DNA of 64,000 bases from Synechococcus sp. KORDI-100 (GTDB lineage Bacteria > Cyanobacteriota > Cyanobacteriia > PCC-6307 > Cyanobiaceae): the NCBI RefSeq assembly GCF_000737535.1, contig NZ_CP006269.1:1364001-1428000 (forward strand), written 5' to 3'. The first letter of the stretch is position 1. Every line of letters starts with the position of its first letter. The position numbers were made by a program, and so were the translations under genes. Below are positions 10,389 to 57,640 of this stretch, piece after piece. The notes beneath the pieces were generated by a model. It was not told the DNA's origin, made no database searches, and saw only the letters and a program-made list of their open reading frames with translations.

Positions 10389-11215
10389 GACAGCGTTTCG
10401 GACGGTGAACTTCCCACGCTACGCCGCCCTGGTGGCGCAGGTTCGGCCTGGAGGAACAACTCCTTCAGCAATTCCTGCAGGCGGCTGCTGGTGATCGGCC
10501 GTTCCAGGCGCCCCTGGTTGGCCAGGGACAGGGTTCCGGTTTCCTCGGACACCACGATGCTGATGCAGCGATCGAAGCGCTCGGTGATGCCGAGGGCGGC
10601 GAGGTGGCGGGTGCCGTAGCGACTGACGCTGTGGCGGGACAGGGGCAGGATCACACCGGCAGCTTCGATGCGGTTGCCGCGCACCAGCACCGCACCGTCG
10701 TGCAACGGGGTGTCGACGGCGAACAGGTTGAGCAGCAGCTCACGGCTCAGCTGCGCGTCAATGGAGACGCCGGGGTTGAGGAAATCTTCCGGCCGCAGAT
10801 CGCTGCCGAGATCCACCACGATCAAGGCACCACGACGCAACTGCGACAGTCGACCGGCCGCTTCGGTGATCTGGCTGACGGTGCCGGCGGCGGCGCGAAA
10901 TTCGTTCTGGGGATTTCCCAGCAACACCGCCAGTCGGCCGGTGCCGAGCAGTTCCATCAGACGCCTCAGTTCTCCCTGCCAGAGGATGGCCAGCGACAGG
11001 GAGCAAGCCATCACCAGGGCATCCACCAGCTTGCTGGTGAGAGGCAGGTTGGCAAAACGCTGCACAAACCAGGCCATCGCCACGAGAAACAGATAGCCCC
11101 TCAGCAGCCAAAGGGTTCGGGCCTCATTGACCCGAGAAAACAACAGGAAGCCGATTGCGGAGGCAAACAGAACGTCGAGAACCAGGCGCGGGTCAACGCC
11201 CGCCAGCACGTTCAC
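10385..11215 (-). CDS. cdaA: Diadenylate cyclase, CdaA type
   Basis: Makes c-di-AMP from two ATP. Three hydrophobic segments fill residues 10-80, followed by the DAC domain with the DGA motif (about 173-175) in [12 protein letters not shown] and [12 protein letters not shown] (about 201-212). The usual RHR motif reads RHL here. GTG 11215 is chosen as the start because it falls just after the lysA stop and gives a normal length of 276 aa; the frame is open to 11290 inside lysA. Its place between lysA and uppS ties it to a cell envelope operon. Confidence 0.9.
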
Positions 11216-45418: not shown

Positions 45419-46570
45419 GTGTTGACGGCGTCCTGGTTGAAGTCTTCCCTCGGTCTGCTGTCTGTTCTGGTTCTGGCATCCCCGGTGCAGGCTCAGTCCC
45501 GCCTGGATCGTTTGCTGGCGCCACGTCGCCCCATGGGGGTTTGGCTGACGAACAGTCCAAGTCCGCTGTACTACGACCGGCAGCGGATCCGCCTGGCCAT
45601 GGAGCAGTTGCAGGAGGCCGGGTTCGATCGCGTGGTGCCGAATGTTTGGAGTCGCGGCACGACCTTCCACAGGAGTGCTTTCGCGCCTGTGGAGCCTCCG
45701 CTGAAGAAAGCCGGTGTGGCCCTTGATCCGATCTGCACCCTGGCCGAGGAGGGACGCAAGCGAGGCATCAAGGTGATGCCCTGGTTTGAATACGGCCTGA
45801 TGGAGCCGGCGAACGCCGAGGTGGTGAAACGTCACCCGGAGTGGGTGCTGGCCAAGGCGAACGGGCAGACGTTCATGACCATGCACGGCAGCCATCGCAT
45901 GGCCTGGTTGAATCCAGCCCACCCCGAGGTCCGGAAGCGTTTCATCGGGCTGGTGGTTGAAACACTCAAACGCTGTCCGATGCATGGTTTGCAGCTGGAC
46001 GACCATTTCGCCTGGCCGGTGCAGTTCGGCTACGACCGCTTCACCACGGCGCTCTATGAACAGCAGACGGGAACACCCCCGCCAAGAGATCACACCAATC
46101 GCACCTGGATGACCTGGCGGAGGAAGCAGCTCACCAGCTTGTTGCGGGAGCTTCGCAGCACGTTGGAGCAGGAGGGTTTGCCGAGCCGGATCAGTCTCTC
46201 TCCCGGACCGTTTCGGCAGGCCTACAACCTCTGGCTCCAGGACTGGGAACTCTGGGCGATGGGAGAAATGATCGATGAGCTGGTGGTTCAGAATTACGCT
46301 TACTCCGTCAAGGGCTTTGCCCGCGATCTTGACCAGCCCGCCCTGCGTAAAGCGCGGGATTGGGGCATTCCCACCCAGATCGGGATTCTCGCCGGGTTCG
46401 GCAAACGCACCACGATGATGCGGGATCTCAATGAGAAGGTCCGTCTTGCGCGCCAACGGGGCCACGGAGTGATCTTTTTCTACTGGGAAGGGTTATGGGG
46501 CAAACATGTCCCACAGAGGTATCGAGAGATTCGCCGAGATGCCTTTGCAAAACTGGGTTCTCAAGATTAG
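45419..46570 (+). CDS. GHL10-like family 10 glycosyl hydrolase-like protein (integration target of the island)
   Basis: 383 residues from GTG 45419. The signal peptide (LGLLSVLVLASPVQAQS) is followed by a TIM-barrel domain of the GHL10/DUF187 type: MGVWLTNSPSPLYY, LQEAGFDRVVPNVWSRG, KVMPWFEYGLM, MHGLQLDDHFAWP and GHGVIFFYWEGLWG. It may act on cell-wall or capsular glycans. The last 19 codons after the att core come from the island, which restores the reading frame; the original tail now sits at 53743-53832. Confidence 0.85.
   Translation: MLTASWLKSSLGLLSVLVLASPVQAQSRLDRLLAPRRPMGVWLTNSPSPLYYDRQRIRLAMEQLQEAGFDRVVPNVWSRGTTFHRSAFAPVEPPLKKAGVALDPICTLAEEGRKRGIKVMPWFEYGLMEPANAEVVKRHPEWVLAKANGQTFMTMHGSHRMAWLNPAHPEVRKRFIGLVVETLKRCPMHGLQLDDHFAWPVQFGYDRFTTALYEQQTGTPPPRDHTNRTWMTWRRKQLTSLLRELRSTLEQEGLPSRISLSPGPFRQAYNLWLQDWELWAMGEMIDELVVQNYAYSVKGFARDLDQPALRKARDWGIPTQIGILAGFGKRTTMMRDLNEKVRLARQRGHGVIFFYWEGLWGKHVPQRYREIRRDAFAKLGSQD
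46481..46512 (+). other. attL: left attachment site within the GHL10-like gene
   Basis: A 32-bp stretch, TACTGGGAAGG to AAACATGTCCC, matches 53743-53774 at 29 of 32 bases. The last 11 bases (AAACATGTCCC, 46502-46512), with the ACATGT palindrome inside, are identical and are the best guess for the crossover core. It codes YWEGLWGKHVP in both copies. Confidence 0.85.
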
Positions 46571-46649
46571 TTCTTGTCAATCTAACAACAACTGATCCTG
46601 CGTGTCTTGCCAGTGTCTCGCAGAATAAGGGATGGCAGAGGAGGTTCAG

Positions 46650-46745
46650 ATGAACTCTGAAACCATAACCAGAGAGGGGATTCGGAGGAACCTGGACTGG
46701 GTTCTGGTTTGGTGGTTCTGGTTCTTCGGTTCAGGTTCGTGGTAG
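46650..46745 (+). CDS. Possible 31-residue membrane peptide
   Basis: The ORF has a near-perfect Shine-Dalgarno AGGAGG six bases before ATG 46650. The product starts MNSETITREGIRRN, then a Trp-rich hydrophobic stretch DWVLVWWFWFFGSGSW. This looks like a small single-span membrane peptide of the kind phages encode. It is the first ORF inside the left end of the island. Support is only the ribosome site and composition. Confidence 0.4.
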   Translation: MNSETITREGIRRNLDWVLVWWFWFFGSGSW

Positions 46746-46977
46746 ATGAACTGAAACTGGGTTTGAGTTTGTGAAAACTTATGTGGCAACTTCTTGACTC
46801 ACGATAAGAAGTATGCCAGGACTGCTGAACACCTAGACATAAACATCTATTCCCACTCTTTATCACGCACAACAACCAATAAATGAGTTTATTTCGTCGT
46901 TATAAAGTCTCTTATTTCTAAATACTCCCAGGTGGGATGATACATACCCACATAAGATTGTTTATACGGTTATACAA

Positions 46978-47196
46978 ATGGCATACCGTTCGCTAAGCAG
47001 AGACGCCGTTCGCAAAGGTGATAAACCTTTGGAGTGGTTGGAGCGTGAATCACCAAGAAACAATGTGATGGTGAAGATGGATGCAGAGTTCCATCAGCAT
47101 CTCAAGAGTGTCGCCAAGGACAGACAGATCAGTCTCGCCCAGATGATTCGTTATGAGATGGCAAAGAACACTGGATACAAGGCACCCAAGAAATGA
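46978..47196 (+). CDS. Small ribbon-helix-helix-like protein
   Basis: 72 residues. The part NNVMVKMDAEFHQHLKSVAK followed by ISLAQMIRYEMAK has the strand-helix-helix pattern of CopG/Arc-type repressors. It has no ribosome site, and the stretch TTGTTTATACGGTTATACAA just before the ATG is a partly symmetric A/T-rich element that could be its operator or promoter. A regulator of island genes is inferred. Confidence 0.6.
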   Translation: MAYRSLSRDAVRKGDKPLEWLERESPRNNVMVKMDAEFHQHLKSVAKDRQISLAQMIRYEMAKNTGYKAPKK

Positions 47197-47626
47197 GGTG
47201 GATGTCTCCAAGGTAGGTCATTGGTGTTCCTGAAGTCCTCGCTCTGTGTGGGTTCTCCTTTCCTCTGTGGGGTTGGATGGTGTTGTTCCTGTTGTGAGGT
47301 GAAGAGAGCACTCTCCTGACACTCACATGAACCACACAAAGGTGAGATTTGGTGATACAAACAGAGAGGGAAACTTCTTATCATTGTGGTGTTCGGATTG
47401 TCCTTGACAACTGGTACTGGTATGGAAGTAATAATCTATTTCTTATTGTTTGCTATCTGTTATCTTATTTGGTATAGAAGAAAGAACAGATACTAGTTCT
47501 GTTTATTTGTATTGAAGGAAGGTTTAGTAACCCAATAATTATGGAAGGAAAAAGGAGGGAAACTCTAAACACTCCTGCTACAAGATGACAATGGAGAATA
47601 GTACGACTCCATTCACAGTATTTAGA
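47197..47626. other. 430-bp island spacer
   Basis: No long ORF. It holds a TTGACA box (47404-47409) and a 24-codon ORF at 47422-47496. The rest has GTGT/CCTC-rich sequence with no clear signal. Confidence 0.45.
47422..47496 (+). CDS. Very short hydrophobic ORF (24 aa), doubtful
   Basis: ATG 47422 opens a frame for MEVIIYFLLFAICYLIWYRR plus a short basic tail, a typical single-span peptide with basic end, as in type I toxins or phage small proteins. There is no ribosome site, and a TTGACA box 13 bases upstream would place a promoter over the ORF, which argues against it. Confidence 0.2.
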   Translation: MEVIIYFLLFAICYLIWYRRKNRY

Positions 47627-47986
47627 TTAGGCGCGAAGAGGGACAAACACTCTGTCGTTCTTATCCAAATACACTCCAAGTCCTTTGCCTTCTGGCACCA
47701 CATAAGAAGCAGACGCTCTTCTTCCCTTCTTGGACATCATTTTCACCTCTCCGTCATCCCATTTCAGCAACGGACGGATGAAGTCTCCCTTCTCTTCAAT
47801 GTCCAGTGAATACACAGTGACACTCTCGTCTTCGTGTGTCTCTGCCACCAACCCAGACAGCACACCATCCAGATGTTCCTGAATATCAGCAGACACCTTC
47901 TTCAACAGCAGTCCTTTGAGATGAAAGTCATCTAAAACCTCTCTGCTTGCCCTGGAGAGGGAGTAATTAAGTTCTCTTGGTTCCAT
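47627..47986 (-). CDS. Island hypothetical protein, 119 aa
   Basis: Starts MEPRELNYSLSRASREVLDD. It has a helical N-terminal half and a beta-rich C-terminal half (VTVYSLDIEEKGDFIRPLLK; KGLGVYLDKNDRVFVPL). Mildly acidic, no cysteine, no family recognised. Opposite in direction to its left neighbour. Confidence 0.55.
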   Translation of the reverse strand: MEPRELNYSLSRASREVLDDFHLKGLLLKKVSADIQEHLDGVLSGLVAETHEDESVTVYSLDIEEKGDFIRPLLKWDDGEVKMMSKKGRRASASYVVPEGKGLGVYLDKNDRVFVPLRA

Positions 47987-48041
47987 TTCTTATTCTTAAT
48001 GATGAGTTTTACCCTTTTTGGGTGTATTCATTATACACAAC

Positions 48042-48251
48042 TCAAAGGAGGATTTCAGTCCCCCAACGGAGGCGTTTGGCGTTCATAATCACTCCAGCAG
48101 TGGTGGGACGGTACGATTTCTCTACTGATTCCGTCCATTTATCTACCATTGACTCACATTCATCGCAGAACACACCATTCACAGAGCAATACTCTGCCAG
48201 AAGGTGAGAAAACGAAGATAAGCGATGTTGTTGGAGGTTCATTGGATGCAT
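48042..48251 (-). CDS. Island small protein with a CxxC motif, 69 aa
   Basis: From ATG 48251 (or 48242). FCDECESMVDKWTES carries a CxxC and the C-terminal part is basic (NAKRLRWGTEILL). It could bind zinc or iron. No family recognised and the start is uncertain. Confidence 0.4.
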   Translation of the reverse strand: MHPMNLQQHRLSSFSHLLAEYCSVNGVFCDECESMVDKWTESVEKSYRPTTAGVIMNAKRLRWGTEILL

Positions 48252-48368
48252 TCAATGAATAACCACGATTATTTATAAGGTATTAGTTAGATACTCCTGT
48301 TTAGTCACTGTTTCTAGTGGGAAGGTTTAGTGAATGTCTAAATAAAGGCAGCAACACACCTTATCTTT

Positions 48369-49154
48369 ATGGATTCCTACTTCTCTGAAGAATACGAAAT
48401 TGAATGGCAGATTTATTGTTGGTTAGACGAGAACTCTGAACCCTACTATGTCTCCAAGTGTCGTATGGGTTCCAATTCTCCCTACGCCAAGCGTCCTGCA
48501 TCTAGAGTTCAACCTCCAAGCGACAGAAGTCGCATCAAAACTCTGTTTATCAGCAAAGATGAGAGAGAAATCTTGGAGAAACTGGACAGACTCACCTACG
48601 AACTGGGTTTGAAAGACGCCACGGAGGGACATGGCACTCTTCGCAACTCCATCAAGCACTCACCCAAGTCATTGCGAGAGAGAAGTCACTCCAAAAAGGT
48701 TCCAGTTGATGTTTATAAGGTGAATAAGGAGAAAGTTGGGCGTTTCAAGTCCATTGGTGATGCTGTTCACTGCCTTGGACTGAACAAAGGCAACGCAATT
48801 GGTGCTCTTCACGGTCGTTTCTACCAAACACAGGGTTATTGCATCCTTTATGCGAACGAGAAGTGGAGAAAGCGTCCTAAAACCAACAGAAGTCGCTACT
48901 GGAGCAAGAGGAAACTCAAGGCATACGACTTGAAAGGAGCGATTCACTCCTTTGATTGTGTTGCTGATGCAGCAGAGATGGTTTATGGGAACAGAAAGAG
49001 GACAAACGGCATCCAGAAGTCACTTTCATCCACCAAAGAGTGGAAAAGCAAAGCAAACGGACTGATGTTCTTTGAAGAAAGCACCCTCCCTGACTTCAAA
49101 GACATCACCATCGCCCAGGTGGGACGACCCACTGCGAGCAATGAACAACGGTAG
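48369..49154 (+). CDS. GIY-YIG nuclease-like protein with NUMOD-type DNA-binding repeats
   Basis: 261 residues. The N-terminus IYCWLDENSEPYYVSKCRMG resembles the GIY-YIG core of phage enzymes (YVYLDE..PYYVGKG type), with Ser where the conserved Gly usually stands. The following part KTLFISKDEREILEKLDRL, then LGLKDATEGHGTLRNSI, fits the rest of that domain. Two repeats follow that look like NUMOD1/IENR DNA-binding modules (KVGRFKSIGDAVHCLGLN and HSFDCVADAAEMVYGN). Possible homing endonuclease or island defence/transfer gene; the Gly to Ser change could mean weak or lost cleavage. It overlaps the next gene by 14 bases. Confidence 0.65.
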   Translation: MDSYFSEEYEIEWQIYCWLDENSEPYYVSKCRMGSNSPYAKRPASRVQPPSDRSRIKTLFISKDEREILEKLDRLTYELGLKDATEGHGTLRNSIKHSPKSLRERSHSKKVPVDVYKVNKEKVGRFKSIGDAVHCLGLNKGNAIGALHGRFYQTQGYCILYANEKWRKRPKTNRSRYWSKRKLKAYDLKGAIHSFDCVADAAEMVYGNRKRTNGIQKSLSSTKEWKSKANGLMFFEESTLPDFKDITIAQVGRPTASNEQR

Positions 49155-49569
49155 TCAGAAGAAGCACATCCTGGATGTAAGAACAGGACCGAGCACAGAA
49201 CATCCTCTCTTTGAAACTTGGAGAGGAATGGTAAGGCGATGCACTGACCCTAAAAGCGACCCAAACAAGATTTATTATCACCGTGGAATCAGGGTTTATC
49301 CACTTTGGACAGAACGATGGGAGAGAGGTTCGCCTGAAGCGTGCCGTGGGATGTGGAGTCCAGGATTCAGGCAGTTCCTCAACTGCGTGGAGGACTTATG
49401 TGGTGAGCGTCCAGATGGATACACCCTGGACAGAATCAATCCAGATGGACACTACGAACCAAGAAACATTCGTTGGGCATCACCTTCTACCCAGCAGAAG
49501 AACAAACGCCCATTCCTTCAACCCAACAAGAACAAGAGTGGATATAAGTGGGTTCTGTATCGAAGATGA
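49141..49569 (+). CDS. HNH-type phage-like endonuclease/DNA-binding protein
   Basis: 142 residues from ATG 49141. The layout HPLFETWRGMVRRCTDP, YYHRGIRVYPLW, FRQFLNCVEDLCG and PDGYTLDRINPDGHYEPRNI then RWASPSTQQKNKR is that of small phage HNH-type proteins. A His in YYHRG and an Asn and Asp in the LDRINPDGHYEPRN block are in place. It follows the GIY-YIG-like gene with overlap, so the two are likely co-expressed. Confidence 0.7.
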   Translation: MNNGSQKKHILDVRTGPSTEHPLFETWRGMVRRCTDPKSDPNKIYYHRGIRVYPLWTERWERGSPEACRGMWSPGFRQFLNCVEDLCGERPDGYTLDRINPDGHYEPRNIRWASPSTQQKNKRPFLQPNKNKSGYKWVLYRR

Positions 49570-49682
49570 CATTGGGAAGGCAGTTTCTGTATAAAAGGAA
49601 AGAGAGTTTGGTGTGGTTGCGGACAAGACAAAGTAAAGGTTTATGAGATGGTGATAGCGAAAAGAATGAAGATGGGATTGCC

Positions 49683-49750
49683 CATACCCAAGGGATGAGC
49701 GAAGGACTGAACCCTTTGCTCATACCCAAGGGATGAGCAAAGGACTGAAC
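49683..49750. repeat. Two 30-bp direct repeats, period 38
   Basis: The unit starting CATACCCAAGGGATGAGC and ending GGACTGAAC occurs at 49683-49712 and 49721-49750 with one mismatch. It lies in the spacer before the gene at 49822. A short palindrome (ATCCTTTGGGAGGAT) follows. It could be a regulator-binding site. Confidence 0.85.
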
Positions 49751-49821
49751 AATCATCCTTTGGGAGGATTCGGAATCAGGAAGGCAGAGACATATTGAAT
49801 ACATCCAAAGGAAACCAACTC

Positions 49822-50385
49822 ATGACCGCCACTGCTCCTGTCACCGAAGACCTCCTGACACAGGAATCAATAGAGCACATGTGCCTCATCCTTCAAAGGA
49901 CAACATTCCTGAATCAAACTCCAGAAGGCGATCCAGTAGGAATCCCCTATCTCAACACCAACGGAATCATCAGGGCACATACCGTCTGGGCATTTCTGGC
50001 AATTCGTCTCTACCACTTCCTCAACGAATACGAGGGGTTTGAAGAAGAAGCAAAAACCATGCACGGAATGTGGAACCTTATTGCAAACGAAATCTATGAA
50101 AACCCCATTGATGTTGCAGGTGCAGAAGGAAAGTATGAGGCAACTCACGGAGTGTTGGGATACATTTGCGAATGTTTAAGACAGGAAGAGAATGACATCG
50201 TGAAAATCTACTGGATGACTCATCTGCTTGATGCCGTAATGGAAACTACAACTGATTATGCAATTGAGATGTATAAGGATAGAGGTGAAGAGCGCTGGGA
50301 ACAAGCAATGAATATCTGTAAGTCATTGACAGTTGGATGCTGGGAACATACCAAGCGAGTAAGGAAGACATTGCTGAAATATTGA
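49822..50385 (+). CDS. Island hypothetical protein, 187 aa
   Basis: ATG 49822 has an AAAGGA ribosome site nine bases before it. An all-helical acidic protein (LTQESIEHMCLILQRTTFLN, LRQEENDIVKIYWMTHLLD, EERWEQAMNICKSL). No membrane segment and no family recognised. The helical repeat-like pattern could be an adaptor or an anti-defence type protein, but nothing in it shows this. Confidence 0.6.
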   Translation: MTATAPVTEDLLTQESIEHMCLILQRTTFLNQTPEGDPVGIPYLNTNGIIRAHTVWAFLAIRLYHFLNEYEGFEEEAKTMHGMWNLIANEIYENPIDVAGAEGKYEATHGVLGYICECLRQEENDIVKIYWMTHLLDAVMETTTDYAIEMYKDRGEERWEQAMNICKSLTVGCWEHTKRVRKTLLKY

Positions 50386-50423
50386 GCTAATAATCGTTAT
50401 AATAACTGAGTTATTTCAAGCAA

Positions 50424-50430
50424 ATAAATA
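50424..50430 (+). promoter_or_regulatory. ATAAATA motif before small island genes, T4-late-promoter-like
   Basis: AATAAATA sits 30 bases before ATG 50461. T4-like cyanophages use a late promoter element of the form NATAAATA. A related but imperfect CTAAATAAAG stands at 48338-48347, also about 30 bases before the GIY-YIG-like gene. A/T-rich DNA gives such motifs by chance, so support is weak. Confidence 0.3.
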
Positions 50431-50460
50431 CTAATACCCTACTATTTTGATAGGAGAAAC

Positions 50461-50640
50461 ATGGACAAAGAAACAGTAGAGTTAGCGGATTTGCTAGCAA
50501 CAGACACAGTCAATTACATAACGAACTGGGCGGAAGAGCACAACTTCACCTATGACGAAGCGTTATACGACATCGTTTGTACTCATCGCCTGAACAGGAG
50601 ACTAAAAGAATCATCTCGTTCTCTCATGGAGTTTGAGTGA
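50461..50640 (+). CDS. Small island protein, 59 aa
   Basis: ATG 50461 follows a strong ribosome site (TAGGAGAAAC). The product is acidic and helical, starting MDKETVELADLLATDTVNYI and ending SRSLMEFE, with one Cys. The next ORF starts one base after its stop. No family recognised. Confidence 0.55.
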   Translation: MDKETVELADLLATDTVNYITNWAEEHNFTYDEALYDIVCTHRLNRRLKESSRSLMEFE

Positions 50641-50641
50641 G

Positions 50642-50758
50642 ATGGATACCAATAGACTTAAAAGAATACTCAATCTCACAGAACACAAGGAACGCAGGAA
50701 ACCTTTATTTGGTGAGAGGAAAGAGAAAGCAAAACCTGAACCAGGCGGAGGGTTGTAG
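50642..50758 (+). CDS. Very small basic island protein, 38 aa
   Basis: ATG 50642 is one base after the previous stop, as in a two-gene operon. The product is basic (starts MDTNRLKRILNLTEHKERRK, ends PEPGGGL). It may be translated by coupling. No family recognised. It ends exactly where the convergent ORF at 50759 ends. Confidence 0.35.
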   Translation: MDTNRLKRILNLTEHKERRKPLFGERKEKAKPEPGGGL

Positions 50759-50950
50759 TTAGTGTCTGGCATTGAGGACATCACTCATATAAAGCATCTG
50801 GTGTTCGTTCTCCTCTACCTTCAACCAGTTCCACTCCTGAAGCATCGCCCTCTGGTTCGCTGCCCAGGTGCCTTTCTCTGTATGAGGTTTGGTGGCGTTG
50901 AAGTTTGTGAAAACAGAACGCATCACCTTCTTGAATTCGTTGCGCTTCAT
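50759..50950 (-). CDS. Small island protein, 63 aa
   Basis: ATG 50950 gives MKRNEFKKVMRSVFTNF, then HTEKGTWAANQRAMLQEWNW and a helical tail; the frame is open to 51007. Mixed charge, no cysteine, no recognised family. It is convergent with the small genes to its left. Confidence 0.4.
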   Translation of the reverse strand: MKRNEFKKVMRSVFTNFNATKPHTEKGTWAANQRAMLQEWNWLKVEENEHQMLYMSDVLNARH

Positions 50951-51080
50951 TTGTAACTTCGTATGGCATTTATAATCTATTCGATATAACTTATTATAGC
51001 AGTTCAAGGTTGATAAATTAAGTCGCTTTCACGACTTGAGTGTAATCAAACTCTTGACAAAGGGTGGGTGTGAGTTGAAC

Positions 51081-51998
51081 TTATTTCACCTGATAAAGGG
51101 TGACTCTTGTTCCCTTCACTCTCTTCCTTACCTTCTCCAACTTCATTCCTTCTGGGTTCAGAAGGTTGTTTAGTTGTCTGGTTCGTCCGTCTCCAGAGTC
51201 CAGACAGAAGTTCAAGAAGTCCAGTTCTTGGTGAAGTTCCTCTGATGTATAAACCTCACCAACTCTTTGGGAGAAGTGAGAGATAACATTCTCTTCAGTG
51301 GAAGGAATCAATGTGTATTCCAACTGAACCATCTGGATTTTAGTTCTCCAAATGGAGTCTCGGAACTTTTGTTTCACCTCAACGGGAGTGGGAAGAGGGA
51401 TGACATAACTCCCATCAATAAAGTGAAGACGATGAAGGAAGTGTTCGATGTCCATCTTGGAGATGGAGATGGGAAAGATATTCCCGTGAGAACCGTCCAA
51501 CCATTCAGTGTTGAACACCTTTCCAAGGACTGACTCTGGGTCGGGGTTCAGGATGTTCTTCACTCTCCATAACTGGTCATTGATGAAGGATGTGACTTCA
51601 GGGATGGTGAGTTCCCTGTATTTCATAGTTCCCTTCTTGATGGATGGAACATGAAGTTGTTTGATCACTCCACCATCGTTATAGATGAAGAAGAAGTGAG
51701 GGATAAACCTTCCAACCAACTTTCCATAGTCATAAGGACTCCAGGTTCCTGGTGAGTTCCATCTCTCCTGGTTGATGGAGGGAGACACCCACTGATAAAA
51801 GTCTGGATAATTAGTCTGACAACAAAGGTCGTGGAGGGTAAGGTCTCCTCTCTTCTTGGTGAAGAAACCTTCATTGGTATAACCATTGTCTTCCAAATTC
51901 CAACCAAAGTGAGTGGAAGGTTTATTGGGAGATGTGTTATAAATAACTGTATCAGATTTCATTCTATCTTCTCTGGATAGTGTGAGATACACATTCAT
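51081..51998 (-). CDS. Island hypothetical protein, 305 aa
   Basis: Starts MNVYLTLSREDRMKSD. It is globular with many aromatic residues: FGWNLEDNGYTNEGFFTKKR, DFYQWVSPSINQERWNSPG, then HFFFIYNDGGVIKQLHVPSI, with LEKVRKRVKGTRVTLYQV at the C-terminus. No signal peptide, no membrane segment and no catalytic motif was recognised. It lies downstream of the integrase in the same direction, separated by the 19-bp inverted repeat region. Confidence 0.6.
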   Translation of the reverse strand: MNVYLTLSREDRMKSDTVIYNTSPNKPSTHFGWNLEDNGYTNEGFFTKKRGDLTLHDLCCQTNYPDFYQWVSPSINQERWNSPGTWSPYDYGKLVGRFIPHFFFIYNDGGVIKQLHVPSIKKGTMKYRELTIPEVTSFINDQLWRVKNILNPDPESVLGKVFNTEWLDGSHGNIFPISISKMDIEHFLHRLHFIDGSYVIPLPTPVEVKQKFRDSIWRTKIQMVQLEYTLIPSTEENVISHFSQRVGEVYTSEELHQELDFLNFCLDSGDGRTRQLNNLLNPEGMKLEKVRKRVKGTRVTLYQVK

Positions 51999-52056
51999 GA
52001 CTTTATCGGGGGTCGTGGATTAAAAGTGAGAGGGTGGTATCTCTCATTCAGGTAAT

Positions 52057-52094
52057 AAAGGAACCCCTTTCAGGAAACTGGGAGGAGTTCCTTT
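52057..52094 (+). terminator. Hairpin with T-run
   Basis: AAAGGAAC (52057-52064) and GTTCCTTT (52087-52094) form an 8-bp perfect stem followed by T residues to 52096 on the plus strand. It resembles a Rho-independent terminator for plus-strand transcripts. Confidence 0.55.
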
Positions 52095-52155
52095 TTGTAC
52101 CCTTCACTCTTATTTAGACGACTTATAAACCCTTATTATTATTACTTTACACAGG

Positions 52156-52257
52156 GGTGTCCCAGTTGTCCCAGAAACGAGGAGACTATAATATTCTATA
52201 TGATTTATCCAATATTAACCATTATAGTTAAGTCATAACTGGGACAACTGGGACACC
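52156..52257. repeat. 19-bp perfect inverted repeat flanking an A/T-rich core
   Basis: GGTGTCCCAGTTGTCCCAG (52156-52174) and CTGGGACAACTGGGACACC (52239-52257) are exact reverse complements, 64 bases apart. Each arm has two TGTCCCAG-like units in direct repeat, so there are four units in all. The core is very A/T-rich. Such arrays can be origin iterons, arm-type integrase or excisionase sites. Confidence 0.85.
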
Positions 52258-52363
52258 TTATCTACCAGTTTAGATACCCTCTAAATAACTACAGTTAAGG
52301 AGTTCCTCCTTCACTGACATAAGGTTTACTGATTTCTCCTTGTGTCCTTATCCTCGGCGAATA

Positions 52364-52395
52364 CCCTTGTCACACTGCCATTGTTGTGACAGGGG
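52364..52395. terminator. Hairpin just after the integrase stop
   Basis: CCCTTGTCACA (52364-52374) and TGTGACAGGGG (52385-52395) form a stem with one G-T pair, within 50 bases of the integrase stop. No T-run follows on the minus strand. Confidence 0.4.
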
Positions 52396-52410
52396 GTTTC
52401 GTTTGTCTTA

Positions 52411-53643
52411 TTACACTAAAGGTACAAAGACCACCTTCTCACTCTTCTTCAGCACCACATCCATCTTCTTATCAGTCATTCCTAGCAGTACTCGGTTCTC
52501 GTTCTCGATTATCACATCCTCATAATGCTTGTGAATCATCATTTCGATCGTTCCAAGGTTCTTCGCCAGCAAATAGGTGGATACGCCCTTGTGAATCCTT
52601 CTGGTTATGTGAGTTGCCCTACAGCAATACATTCGATACTCCAGTCCCAGTCCTACCGCAGTCAATATTTCTCTAAACCGTCGCGAAAAGAACTGACTAG
52701 ACCACTGTTTCCTCGTTCCGAAGTCCATCCATAGTGAGGTTGTGGATTTTGGATCAACCTTTTTGCTCTTGAAGAGGGCAATAACCTTTGGAACAGTCTG
52801 GGATAAGAATATTGTGTTCCTTCTACCAGTCTTACTCACTCGCACATCAACTAAAGTCTCTCCATTGCTCTTGTATTTGATGTCGCCGAACTGAATATTG
52901 AATAACTCATCAGTTCTGAACCCACCCTCCAGTTGAAGTTCAAAGAAATACAGCATCTGCTTCCACTTCCATACCTCCACACCTTCTGATTCTTCTATCC
53001 GTCTCTCCAACTCACCTCTTATTGCCTTCACTTGCTCCTCTGTGAATGCTTTCTCACCTTGTTCTTCTTCTCGTGCCTCGTGTGTCTGACGAGGGATGGG
53101 GATATTACATGTTGCATCCTTTATCAATCCATTCTTGAACAACCAGTTGGCGAACTCCTTGATGATTTTCACCTCTGCCTTCACGGTCGAGTGCTTATAA
53201 CCCAGTCCTTTTCGCCAGGAACAGTAGTCCTTGAAGTGTCTCTTGAAGTTCAACTCTTTCACTCTGAAGAATCCAAACTCCAGGAGATACTTCAACATCC
53301 CTGAACGAAGGGAACACTGCTTCACTTCAAAGGTGCTCTGCTTGATTTCCTTTCTCTTCACCCTTTGCTCGTGAAAGGCAAGGAACGCATCAATCATTTC
53401 TGACACTGTCGCGTTCTCTGTCTTGCTGTTGGCGTCTGGGTTCTTCAGGAACTCCTGATAAATCTCTGGCAGCAGTGCCATCGCCCTTGCCTGATCCACC
53501 GTCTCTGTGGATCTGAAGAACGACTGACGCCTCTCCTTCTTCCAGAAACGAATCCACCAGTAGGGACTGTTTTCAAACTGGACAAGATGGACGCTTGGGA
53601 AGGGCGTCTCCACTTTCTGGGTTTGCTTGCCTCGTCCCGCCAT
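52411..53643 (-). CDS. int: Tyrosine site-specific integrase
   Basis: 410 residues. The N-terminal part (about 80-190) is a SAM-like core-binding domain, HSTVKAEVKIIKEFANWLFK. The catalytic domain has Arg in LEGGFRTDELFN, Lys in VSKTGRRN, Arg in YCCRATHITRRIHKG, His in MIHKHYEDV and the Tyr nucleophile in that HKHY motif. The box II His is less clear (Y-C-C-R). The gene starts about 100 bases from the right att site. It is the likely agent of island integration in the GHL10-like gene. Confidence 0.9.
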   Translation of the reverse strand: MAGRGKQTQKVETPFPSVHLVQFENSPYWWIRFWKKERRQSFFRSTETVDQARAMALLPEIYQEFLKNPDANSKTENATVSEMIDAFLAFHEQRVKRKEIKQSTFEVKQCSLRSGMLKYLLEFGFFRVKELNFKRHFKDYCSWRKGLGYKHSTVKAEVKIIKEFANWLFKNGLIKDATCNIPIPRQTHEAREEEQGEKAFTEEQVKAIRGELERRIEESEGVEVWKWKQMLYFFELQLEGGFRTDELFNIQFGDIKYKSNGETLVDVRVSKTGRRNTIFLSQTVPKVIALFKSKKVDPKSTTSLWMDFGTRKQWSSQFFSRRFREILTAVGLGLEYRMYCCRATHITRRIHKGVSTYLLAKNLGTIEMMIHKHYEDVIIENENRVLLGMTDKKMDVVLKKSEKVVFVPLV

Positions 53644-53742
53644 TGCCTGGTGAGGGTCCTCTTGGCATTATAACGCCTCTTGCTTGAGTGTCCCGCATCT
53701 CATTACTATCAGAAACCATGCTGTGACTGAAATAACTTTTGC

Positions 53743-53774
53743 TACTGGGAGGGCTTATGGGGGAAACATGTCCC
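53743..53774 (+). other. attR: right attachment site
   Basis: It matches 46481-46512 at 29 of 32 bases and shares the identical AAACATGTCCC core at 53764-53774. It marks the end of the island, with the native 3' end of the target gene just beyond. Confidence 0.85.
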
Positions 53775-53832
53775 CGTTGCCTCGAGACGCGCCCGGTACA
53801 ACGCGTTCAGGAAACTGGGCACCACAGATTGA
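53743..53832 (+). pseudogene. Displaced native 3' end of the GHL10-like gene
   Basis: Read in frame it codes YWEGLWGKHVP, then VASRRARYNAFRKLGTTD and a stop. It aligns with the current C-terminus of the hydrolase (YWEGLWGKHVP, then QRYREIRRDAFAKLGSQD). The fragment has no start or promoter of its own and is the tail left behind when the island inserted. Confidence 0.85.
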
Positions 53833-53947: not shown

Positions 53948-54742
53948 TTAACGGTTTCGACGACCTACGAGTTGCTTCAGGCTGAGCACCACCATGCAAA
54001 GCACTCCGATGATCGGTCCCGGTGGCAGGTCAGCCCAGATCGCCACGACCATGCCGCCGCTGCAGAGCAGCAAGCCCGTGACCGCCGAACGCACCATCAA
54101 CTGACGCAGGCTGAGACTATGCTCCAAATGCACCAGCACTGGTGCGCAGAGAAGACCGATCACCAGCACGATGCCGACGGCTGTAATCGCGCTGATCACC
54201 ACCAGAGCGGTGGCGACGATGGTGATGAAGCGGATTCGGGTGACGGGTCGCTTTGCGGCAATGGCTCCTTCGGGATCAACGCCGAGGAACACCAGATCGC
54301 TGTAGAAATTGATCAGAAGCAGAACCAAGGCCCCGGCGGCGATCCCGGTGCGGATCAGATCGGTACCACTTGCCGCCAGGGGATCGCCGAACAGAACCGT
54401 CTCAAGATCAACGCGCGCCTGAAGCAATGGCACGAGCAGAACACCGAGGGCTGTGAATCCCGCCAGAACCGTGTTCATGGCTCCTTCTTCGCGTCCTTGA
54501 AAGCCCTGATTGAGCCGTTCAGCCAGCAAGGCTCCCAGCAGGCCGCTGATCAGACCGCCGATGGTGGGATCCAGCTCCAGGGCGAGGGCGAGGACCAGCC
54601 CGGGCAGAACAGAGTGCGCCATCAGATTGGCCAGCAGAATCCGCCGTTGGGTGATCAGCAGCGATCCGGTTGCGGGGCAGATCAGGCCGATGATCAAGGC
54701 CAGGATTCCTGGAGCCAGCCACCAGAGCTCGGTTTCAATCAC
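53948..54742 (-). CDS. znuB: Zinc/manganese-type ABC transporter permease (ZnuB-like)
   Basis: 264 residues with about eight hydrophobic segments (LLWWLAPGILAL-type start). It has LLANLMAHSVLPGLVLALAL, LVFLGVDPEGAIAA and LCAPVLVHLEHSLSLRQLM, as in metal ABC permeases of the ABC-3 family. Its start overlaps the stop of the ATPase gene. Zinc is the probable metal, judged by the Zur-like box and the His-rich neighbour. Confidence 0.88.
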   Translation of the reverse strand: MIETELWWLAPGILALIIGLICPATGSLLITQRRILLANLMAHSVLPGLVLALALELDPTIGGLISGLLGALLAERLNQGFQGREEGAMNTVLAGFTALGVLLVPLLQARVDLETVLFGDPLAASGTDLIRTGIAAGALVLLLINFYSDLVFLGVDPEGAIAAKRPVTRIRFITIVATALVVISAITAVGIVLVIGLLCAPVLVHLEHSLSLRQLMVRSAVTGLLLCSGGMVVAIWADLPPGPIIGVLCMVVLSLKQLVGRRNR

Positions 54743-55530: not shown

Positions 55531-56451
55531 ATGTCATTTTCGGGATGGTTCCGGTTCGCTGGGCTGGCCTCGATAGTCGTGATCGGTGTTGGTGCCGTTC
55601 CTCCCGTGCTTGCCGCTCCCCCCACGGTGGTAGCTGTTGATGGCACCCTTTGCGATATCACCCGCACCCTGGCTGGCTCTTCAGCCCGGGTCACCTGCCT
55701 GATCCCTCCGGGTGGCGATCCCCATGGCTATCGCCTCAAGCCCAGTGATCGCAAGGCTTTGTCCAATGCTTCGTTGGTGGTGCACATCGGCTTCGGCCTC
55801 ACGCCGGCGGCGAAAAAAATCTCCAGTCCCGGAAAAGTGGTGGCTGTCGGTGAAGTCGCTCTCCCCTCCTATCGAGGCAACGATCCTCACGTTTGGCACG
55901 ATCCGGCCAACACCGCTGCGATCGTGACGGTGGTGGCCAACAATCTCGCCCCGCTTCTGCCTGCCGGAGAACGGGCGGCTCTGGGGGTGCGGGCCTCCAA
56001 GGCCAAGGCCGTCATGAACGCCCTTGGCAGCTGGGGATCCGCCCAGTTCTCAACATTGCCGAAGGCTCGGCGTGTTCTGGTCACCGACCATCAGACCTAC
56101 AGCCATCTGGCCAAGCGTTACGGCATCAATGAGATTTCCATGCTGGACAGCTACACCACCGGAGGTGTGTTGCGGCCGTCAAGTCTCAACCGTATTTCCA
56201 ACGCCGTGAAGGCATCCGGGGCCATGATCATTTTCACCCCCTCGTTGCCTCCGAACAAGACTCTCCGACGAATCAGCAAAAGCACGGGGCTGCCCATTTC
56301 AAAAACCCCGATTTACGGAGAAGGCGTCTCGCCAGGTGGAACTGCCGTCTCGACGGCGACAGCCAACATCTGCACGATGGTGACCGGACAGGGTGGGCGG
56401 TGTGACAAGGCCGCCGCCGCAAAGCTCGCCGCTCGTTGGAAAGCGATTTAA
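55531..56451 (+). CDS. znuA: Zinc ABC transporter substrate-binding protein (ZnuA-like)
   Basis: 306 residues. A signal peptide (residues 1-28) precedes a cluster A-I fold: GGDPHGYRLKPSDRKAL (His), NDPHVWHDPANTAAIV (His), VTDHQTYSHLAKRYGI (His) and TPIYGEGVSPGG at the end. It lacks the His-rich loop found in many ZnuA proteins. The next gene carries a large His/Asp tract instead. The two are 19 bases apart and likely cotranscribed. Confidence 0.88.
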   Translation: MSFSGWFRFAGLASIVVIGVGAVPPVLAAPPTVVAVDGTLCDITRTLAGSSARVTCLIPPGGDPHGYRLKPSDRKALSNASLVVHIGFGLTPAAKKISSPGKVVAVGEVALPSYRGNDPHVWHDPANTAAIVTVVANNLAPLLPAGERAALGVRASKAKAVMNALGSWGSAQFSTLPKARRVLVTDHQTYSHLAKRYGINEISMLDSYTTGGVLRPSSLNRISNAVKASGAMIIFTPSLPPNKTLRRISKSTGLPISKTPIYGEGVSPGGTAVSTATANICTMVTGQGGRCDKAAAAKLAARWKAI

Positions 56452-56470
56452 GTCGTCATTGATCCGGCGC

Positions 56471-57640
56471 ATGTCTCTTTTTTCGTTCCGTTCCGTGTTT
56501 CGTCCCATGTTCCGTTCCCGAAGCCTGCTTCTGGCTTTGTTTTTGCTCCCTCTGGTCCATGCCCCGGCTGCCTTTGCCCATGGCAGCCATGGCGGAGGTG
56601 GATCAGAAACTCTTGAAGAAGGTGAATTCGATTTCACACCGATTGTCACAGTCGAGTGGCATGGCGGATTTGATAACAATCTCGAGGACAAACCGAGACA
56701 TGACGCCCTGGATGGACTGCTTGGCGGGGCGTTCGAGTGGGGCCTGAGCAATGGCGGCAGTCTCACGATCGAGGCGGCCGTCGGTCCAGCTCTGGTGTGG
56801 GGCGAGGCGGAGCACTTCTACGGCAAGGTCCATGCTCATGGCGACCACGATGAGCATGGCCATGACGAGCATGCTCACGAGGATGACCATGAGGATCATG
56901 GCGACGAGGAGCATGACGACCATGACGACCATGATCATGATCACGACCATGACCATGACCATGACCATGATCACGACGATCACGGTCATGAAGATGATCA
57001 CGACGACCACGACGACCACGATGATCACGACGACCACGATGATCACGACGATCATGACGACCACGGCCATGAGGACCATGGACACGGTCCGGCTGAATTC
57101 AAACGAACGGACGTACGCGGATACCTGAGCGTTCGTTATGCCCCCAATGATCGGCTCAGTTTCACCGTCGATTGGGCTCCCTATTACGTCACCCGTGATC
57201 AGGGTGAAGACATCGAGGGCTTAAAGAACGAAGTAGGTGGCGAAGTCCTCTGGGCTCTCGGTGATGGAGATGTTGACTTCGCTCTCGGTGACGGGCTGGA
57301 GGATGTCGTTGATGGATTGTTCCTGCTCGTCAGACACCGTCAGGGCTGGGAGTCGGATGGGGTCTACATCGGTAACTACACTGATCCCCGCATTGGCCTT
57401 GGCTTCAACATCAATGAGTTGAACGTCACCATGGACGCCGGTCCTCGTTTCTACGTTCCCGGGAGTTACTCCGGATTGGATCAGCGAACTGACTTTGCGG
57501 GCGAAGTTGAATTGTCAGTCCCCATCGGCGACGTGACGTTGTTTGTGCACTGGCAGCCGACCTACTCCGGCACGGATGCTCCGGGTTGGGGTGTGGGCTG
57601 GCAACACCACGTGGGTACGGGGATGACCTTCAGTTTCTGA
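56471..57640 (+). CDS. Outer-membrane-type protein with a long Asp/His-rich tract
   Basis: 389 residues from ATG 56471. A signal peptide (LLLALFLLPLVHAPAAFAHG) precedes a beta-rich part and, at about residues 118-207, a tract of HD/DDH repeats with over 40 histidines. The rest is beta-strand with Gly/aromatic alternation ending GTGMTFSF, a terminal Phe as in outer-membrane barrels. The DNA of the tract is built from short GACGACCAC-like units. As it follows znuA, it may capture zinc at the cell surface or feed it inward. Function is inferred; repeat length may vary among strains. Confidence 0.75.
   Translation: MSLFSFRSVFRPMFRSRSLLLALFLLPLVHAPAAFAHGSHGGGGSETLEEGEFDFTPIVTVEWHGGFDNNLEDKPRHDALDGLLGGAFEWGLSNGGSLTIEAAVGPALVWGEAEHFYGKVHAHGDHDEHGHDEHAHEDDHEDHGDEEHDDHDDHDHDHDHDHDHDHDHDDHGHEDDHDDHDDHDDHDDHDDHDDHDDHGHEDHGHGPAEFKRTDVRGYLSVRYAPNDRLSFTVDWAPYYVTRDQGEDIEGLKNEVGGEVLWALGDGDVDFALGDGLEDVVDGLFLLVRHRQGWESDGVYIGNYTDPRIGLGFNINELNVTMDAGPRFYVPGSYSGLDQRTDFAGEVELSVPIGDVTLFVHWQPTYSGTDAPGWGVGWQHHVGTGMTFSF

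Follow-up and report, generated by a model that had tools for sequence, protein, structure and literature searches.

A 7.3-kb island with its own tyrosine integrase, very probably inserted site-specifically into the 3′ end of a GHL10 gene in Synechococcus sp. KORDI-100

Where a tRNA or protein gene serves as the target of an integrative element, the attachment site of the element (attP) usually carries a sequence that replaces the displaced gene end, as in the icd type of island (PMC10111431), and protein-coding genes are used by many genomic islands (PMC12884075). The integrases and tycheposons of picocyanobacteria have been tied to tRNA genes (PMC10187409, PMC10872708). In this study we describe an island in a 64,000-nucleotide stretch of the Synechococcus sp. 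KORDI-100 genome (contig NZ_CP006269.1, positions 1,364,001 to 1,428,000; hereafter the window, in whose coordinates positions are given) that was very probably inserted site-specifically into the 3′ end of a GHL10 gene by its own tyrosine integrase. In view of the background above, the original prediction, made from the window sequence without database searches, overstated its case in calling a protein-gene target unusual.

The island measures 7,262 bp from core to core and has a G+C content of 44.3%, with flanks at 63.9% and 61.1%. It is bounded by a 32-bp direct repeat (46481–46512 and 53743–53774) with 29 identical positions (90.6%; blastn E 4.8e-6 within the 7.3-kb element). Inside the repeat lies an identical 11-bp core, AAACATGTCCC (46502–46512 and 53764–53774), which has no further occurrence on either strand of the window, and to the left of the repeat the similarity extends for about 7 more bases with one mismatch. 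The core overlaps codons 362–365 (K-H-V-P) of the GHL10 gene (GTG start, TAG stop; Pfam GHL10 E 1e-59), leaving the 18 last codons beyond it. The original prediction, which had placed an island replacing the 3′ end of this gene at 46481–53832, had the coordinates right, and both the 29-of-32 repeat and the 11-bp core were confirmed. The features that define the two junctions are listed here (genomes and contigs carry our own G and L numbers).

45419–46570, + strand: hybrid GHL10 gene, 383 amino acids, with the native body through the core and the last 18 codons and stop supplied by the island; 91% identical to its counterpart in G005
46481–46512, + strand: left direct repeat (left attachment site, attL, side) with core at 46502–46512; 29 of 32 positions shared with 53743–53774
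46513–46570, + strand: island-borne replacement tail (..QRYREIRRDAFAKLGSQD and stop), from comparison of tail DNA; best match 0.64 (G022)
52411–53643, − strand: tyrosine integrase, 410 amino acids, beside the right junction and directed into the island (phrog_1 E 6e-27, PF00589 E 9e-8; R243, K271, R342 and Y374)
53743–53774, + strand: right direct repeat (right attachment site, attR, side) with core at 53764–53774, from repeat and core mapping
53775–53832, + strand: stranded native GHL10 tail (..VASRRARYNAFRKLGTTD and stop, TGA ending at 53832) without a gene body; best match G005 among the tails compared
53948–54742, − strand: znuB-like permease gene (name by eye), the chromosomal neighbour that marks the empty site; 89% in G005

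If the left and right flanks are joined at the core, GHL10 regains a 383-codon frame that ends in ..GKHVPVASRRARYNAFRKLGTTD, a native-type tail. Connected to each other, the two ends of the island encode YWEGLWGKHVPQRYREIRRDAFAKLGSQD and a stop in frame, and the junction of a circular form is predicted to read ..TGGGGGAAACATGTCCCACAGAGG... An empty site, which the original prediction suggested looking for, is found in the sister genome G005, where the 91%-identical GHL10 gene is the sole GHL10 match and znuB ends approximately 40 bp away. Among the tails compared, the stranded tail of the window is closest to that of G005 (0.70 for DNA, 0.64 for amino acids), whereas the attached tail reaches 0.54 to G005 at the DNA level and has its best DNA match (0.64) in G022, from a different clade; the two tails have 51% of their bases in common. 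A degraded island in G018, to which we return below, shares the end of the attached tail and the DNA that follows (81% over 36 bp). Since the stranded tail is nearest to G005 and the attached tail is not, the native tail has been displaced and the tail in use was supplied by the island, in good agreement with the original prediction of an in-frame left junction, an island-supplied tail and a native tail at 53743–53832.

To place this locus within the genus, 34 genomes were searched: a GHL10 match was present in 30 of them, that of the window included, and we fetched the locus from the 29 others, some of which are shortened by contig ends. znuB lies downstream of GHL10 in 26 of the 29 loci; its end is no more than 1.2 kb from GHL10 in 20 of these and 4–7 kb away in six. 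One of the 29, G023, has a separate second GHL10 tail; there, an island of about 4 kb lies between an attached tail, WGSHVPEYARKNRRESFARMGSLK, and a stranded tail, WGKHVAERYRDPRRAAFTRLGSD, 4 kb further on. The stranded tail is identical to the native tail of G012 at 97% of DNA and 100% of protein positions, and the insert holds broken gmd- and fcl-like frames together with a YdcF-like open reading frame (ORF; names by eye). The original prediction had also raised the case that the island genes are present in all relatives; a blastn comparison of the island with the 29 loci (E 1e-5) returned a single match, in G018. In this genome GHL10 is a pseudogene with several breaks whose similarity stops near the same place, and it is followed by a 4.1-kb low-GC stretch that shares with the window island 74% over 89 bp, weaker matches of 81% over 36 bp and 67% over 124 bp, a gene for a ribbon-helix-helix-like (RHH) protein (54%) and part of a 119-amino-acid protein. 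An integrase and a stranded tail were looked for in G018 and neither was found; judged by these similarities, the stretch is a degraded relative of the window island.

Four genomes with 6–7 kb between GHL10 and znuB (G001, G011, G013 and G022) were considered as carriers of islands of this type and rejected, as they have no separate second tail; what they carry in this interval are ORFs that, by eye, resemble glycosyltransferase and sulfotransferase genes. Second tails in G013 (the match overlaps the first tail, and the frame is shifted there) and G035 (a fragment at a contig end) were likewise rejected. As a separate observation, loci L051, L061, L067 and L072, from four genomes of the genus, carry a giant glycosyltransferase-like ORF (approximately 1,540–1,610 amino acids) and a sulfotransferase-like ORF between GHL10 and znuB, again named by eye.

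Across 400 genomes of the same family, the last 53 residues of GHL10 gave matches in 202. From that table, 61 genomes with at least two tail matches were picked by eye and searched again, and a separate second tail within 10 kb on the same contig was found in three of them: the window genome, G023 and G235. The remaining second matches lay on other contigs, far away or, in G013, overlapping the first. G235 belongs to another genus, in which the tail is present in 30 of 31 genomes and a second tail in G235 only; its 1.9-kb insert, encoding an AbrB-like and a TPR protein, lies between the copies of a 27-bp repeat (92.6%). The stranded tail of G235 is closest to that of G169 and the attached tail to those of G332, G296 and G316 (DNA 0.79 and 0.71), and on this comparison the direction of the swap is less clear than in G023. 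The junctions in the three lineages all fall within the same ten or so codons. Judging from these loci, the GHL10 3′ end is a reused integration site, occupied in the window, G023, G235 and, in degraded form, G018.

The position of the junction coincides with a change in the conservation of the protein. Over 26 same-genus GHL10 proteins (those of the window and G023 were left out as occupied, and those of G013 and G018 did not pass the motif filter), conservation averages 0.93 over residues 349–364, a stretch ending in the core, and 0.57 over residues 365–383. This drop at the core places the chromosomal attachment site (attB) at the last strongly conserved codons, so that an element need supply the variable tail only.

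We then considered the integrase itself. A search with the single sequence matched 3 of the 400 genomes at E <= 1e-12, its own included. No homologue above 33% identity was present in the other genomes of the 34-genome genus set, and a search for relatives in GTDB contigs, IMG/VR, phages and plasmids led nowhere. The best relative (30%) is encoded in G324, 0.7 kb from a relative of the RHH protein. On contig L086 of this genome the end of rpoD, ..GAATACATCAAGTAA, borders on low-GC DNA that contains another RHH gene and runs to the end of the contig; contig L084 has an inward-pointing integrase, then GAATACATCAAGTAA again, then a gene for a 150-amino-acid protein. In G286, rpoD and the 150-amino-acid gene adjoin without an island. 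The two G324 contigs presumably join as one rpoD island, and thus the order would be that of the window: target end, RHH gene, cargo, integrase and repeated end. G324 differs from the window in having a second RHH gene beside the integrase. RHH islands between rpoD and the 150-amino-acid gene in G235 and G270 carry a 10-bp repeat only, which is at chance level (E 0.97 and 0.17), and so only G324 was counted as an rpoD insertion. Three short ORFs of the G324 island (L084, 2007–4681) have GG-type leaders and, by eye, a Nif11/prochlorosin-like appearance.

A profile built from the window integrase and two G324 integrases matched 43 of the 400 genomes at E <= 1e-20. No tRNA gene was found at 30 integrase loci (flanks of up to 1.5 kb for L131–L159, 15 kb for L085); when 20 of these loci were extended to sides of about 10 kb (shorter in L167), a tRNA gene appeared in three, each time more than 2 kb from the integrase. 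Gene-end repeats were kept for 3 of the 20 regions around these more distant relatives. In G024 (L161) an imperfect repeat, detected by blastn only, marks a corrinoid adenosyltransferase gene at its 3′ end (stranded ..AYAEQGVDLKRGVDY and stop), and in G014 the repeat is at the 3′ end of rpsD (..DYSRKV and stop). In G195 (L165) a 57-bp repeat (94.7%; 2298–2354 and 10782–10838) flanks an 8.5-kb integrase island and corresponds to the 5′ end of a glutathione S-transferase (GST) gene, a 5′ target, unlike the others. The integrase of G002 also adjoins rpsD; a repeat was sought there and none was found. An exact-repeat scan yielded three matches (L165, L168 and L176) versus one in reversed controls; the 16-bp exact repeat of L176 was dropped as being at noise level, and two repeats of 32 and 22 bp in L166 (G235) were dropped for not being at a gene end. 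Taken together, the loci suggest, but do not show, that the integrase lineage generally uses protein-gene ends, since no gene-end repeat was kept for 17 of the 20 regions. In an alignment of 31 integrases, the first arginine and the tyrosine are kept in all 31 and the lysine and second arginine in 30; the box-II histidine is a tyrosine in 25, the window integrase among them.

We propose that the island, equipped with its own tyrosine integrase, entered the chromosome by site-specific recombination at the GHL10 3′ end. On this view its attP carries, in frame, the 29 closing codons of a GHL10 gene that probably belonged to another lineage; a crossover in or near AAACATGTCCC therefore gave the gene a foreign but in-frame tail and displaced the native one to the opposite side of the island. 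While the anatomy, the empty site, the identity of the native tail, the reuse of the site and the retention of the catalytic residues can be read from the DNA itself, we infer that this integrase carried out the insertion, that the element can still excise and that the hybrid GHL10 protein works. Three results weigh against the proposal. No integrase homologue was found in the fetched G023, G235 and G018 regions with 31 integrase queries, and therefore the link between integrase and site rests on one locus; the collections searched hold no complete second copy of the island; and no donor could be assigned to the attP tail, for which the best match among the tails compared is 64% at the DNA level.

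Past integration as proposed is compatible with the element now being a fixed, immobile remnant that is kept for its cargo, a possibility that we regard as rather doubtful: the scanned ORFs include none recognisable as a replication, packaging or conjugation gene and the G018 relative is visibly degraded, but in the window neither the integrase frame nor either junction is broken, and the integrase retains its catalytic residues. Very unlikely is a homologous replacement, in which DNA from another strain brought in genes via GHL10 homology without a site-specific enzyme. Flexible glycan-type genes do occupy the GHL10–znuB interval of G001, G011, G013 and G022 without a separate second tail; however, site-specific integration is what leaves direct repeats on both sides and a stranded gene end, a full integrase adjoins, the junctions of three lineages fall within about ten codons and the related G324 element has its repeat at an unrelated gene end. 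That the GHL10 tail was duplicated in tandem (or the whole gene was, and then decayed) and that the island genes gathered in between later is scarcely credible: two homologous tails are present and GHL10 tails vary within the genus, but the ancient duplication that the original prediction named as its alternative does not fit a genome with a stranded tail and no further GHL10 body, tails that are only 51% alike and nearest to different lineages, the single native-type copy of G005, or G023, where the stranded and not the attached tail is the native one (97% DNA and 100% protein identity to G012).

Besides the integrase, the island that we take to have integrated site-specifically contains the following features.

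46978–47196, + strand: 72-amino-acid RHH-like protein at the left island end (weak RHH_10, E 0.047); homologues at 54% in the G018 island and at 39% and 32% in G324
47627–47986, − strand: 119-amino-acid protein, function not identified; C-terminal 35 residues 37% similar in the G018 island (E 2e-6)
48369–49154, + strand: 261-amino-acid protein, weakly NUMOD/homing-endonuclease-like (NUMOD1 E 0.0025 and TIGR01453 E 1.5e-4, both below cut-off; PADLOC HEase E 4e-4)
49144–49569, + strand: HNH endonuclease (phrog_374 E 3e-25); ORF open from TTG at 49072, ATG at 49144
49795–50385, + strand: 196-amino-acid protein, unassigned cargo (ORF; alternative ATG at 49822)
50461–50640, + strand: 59-amino-acid small protein (ORF with AGGAG upstream)
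51081–51998, − strand: 305-amino-acid protein, function not identified (ORF)
52156–52257, no strand: long palindrome of 102 bp, an inverted repeat with an outer 19-bp stem of GTCCCA repeats (DNA fold z = −5.9 versus 200 shuffles)

The HNH endonuclease has matches in 904 phage records, each below 60% identity. The 196-amino-acid protein has no match in Pfam, PHROGs, IMG/VR, phages, PADLOC or NCBIfam; relatives of the 305-amino-acid protein were sought and none was found, and its single-sequence AlphaFold model is uninformative (predicted local distance difference test score, pLDDT, of 33). The palindrome is located approximately 160 bp upstream of the 305-amino-acid gene and is a candidate replication origin or operator/regulator site. 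Among the ORFs scanned with Pfam, PHROGs, PADLOC and NCBIfam, no replication, conjugation, packaging or defence gene was recognised, the PADLOC defence scan giving only the weak homing-endonuclease match and a weak match to the integrase. Of the 10 ORFs scanned per library, none had a structural phrog or Pfam match that would point to a prophage (capsid, terminase or tail), no phage DNA related to the island was found, and a search for a phage or viral contig with the GHL10 tail as attP found none. Two side observations concern other parts of the window: a 38-bp unit is repeated 1.9 times in tandem (94% match) at 49678–49750, between the HNH and 196-amino-acid genes, and the protein encoded at 56393–57640, near znu-type zinc transport genes (names by eye), has an Asp/His-rich stretch (56876–57092) and resembles a metal-binding protein.

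It is possible, and we put it forward tentatively, that a marine picocyanobacterial integrase lineage habitually uses conserved protein-gene ends (GHL10, rpoD, rpsD and the corrinoid adenosyltransferase gene) rather than tRNA genes as attB, and that islands have come and gone at GHL10 so often (some lacking an integrase and perhaps mobilised in trans) that the C-terminal tail has become the least conserved region of the mature protein. If so, mobile elements would act as tail exchangers for a core enzyme. The locus also prompts the testable idea that 3′-end swapping by islands diversifies the C-terminus of a conserved enzyme. It represents a protein-gene hotspot of repeated integration in a probably marine Synechococcus lineage, in which the island systems described in the literature consulted are tied to tRNA genes, and its exact attachment-site coordinates could be used for polymerase chain reaction tests or for chromosomal insertion in such strains.

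How does the island compare with described systems? Like tycheposons, as presented by papers that cite them (PMC10872708, PMC10187409), it is a cargo island with a tyrosine recombinase, a type found in marine picocyanobacteria and other marine bacteria; according to those papers tRNA genes border tycheposons, whereas the window has no tRNA gene. The tRNA-Phe/tRNA-Cys integrase family of picocyanobacteria (PMC10187409) likewise comprises integrase islands in Synechococcus and Prochlorococcus, but its members typically lie upstream of those tRNAs and are described as being missed by PHROGs profiles, while the window integrase matches phrog_1. The PICMI satellites of Vibrionaceae (PMC10803314) resemble the window island in being marine, about 6 kb long and poor in genes, with an integrase and direct repeats at the end of one protein gene. 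They carry int, alpA and prim next to fis, while the window island has the integrase only (no AlpA, DUF3987 or DUF5906 primase match among the ORFs scanned), has GHL10 as its target and no known helper phage. The closest parallel is the icd type of island and prophage (PMC10111431, PMC12884075), in which an integrase island also brings a replacement coding end in its attP, keeps the frame and strands the native end on the far side. The window island has the same hallmarks, with a recombinase gene inside, direct repeats with an identical core, an empty site in G005 and an in-frame attP end; it differs from the icd type in its target, integrase, cargo and host lineage, and its replacement and displaced tails have 51% of bases in common. 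We recognised no description of GHL10, rpoD or rpsD as attB in these cyanobacteria in the literature searched, a collection that omits most subscription papers. The mechanism of insertion is thus that of the already known icd type, and what is new is the GHL10 hotspot.

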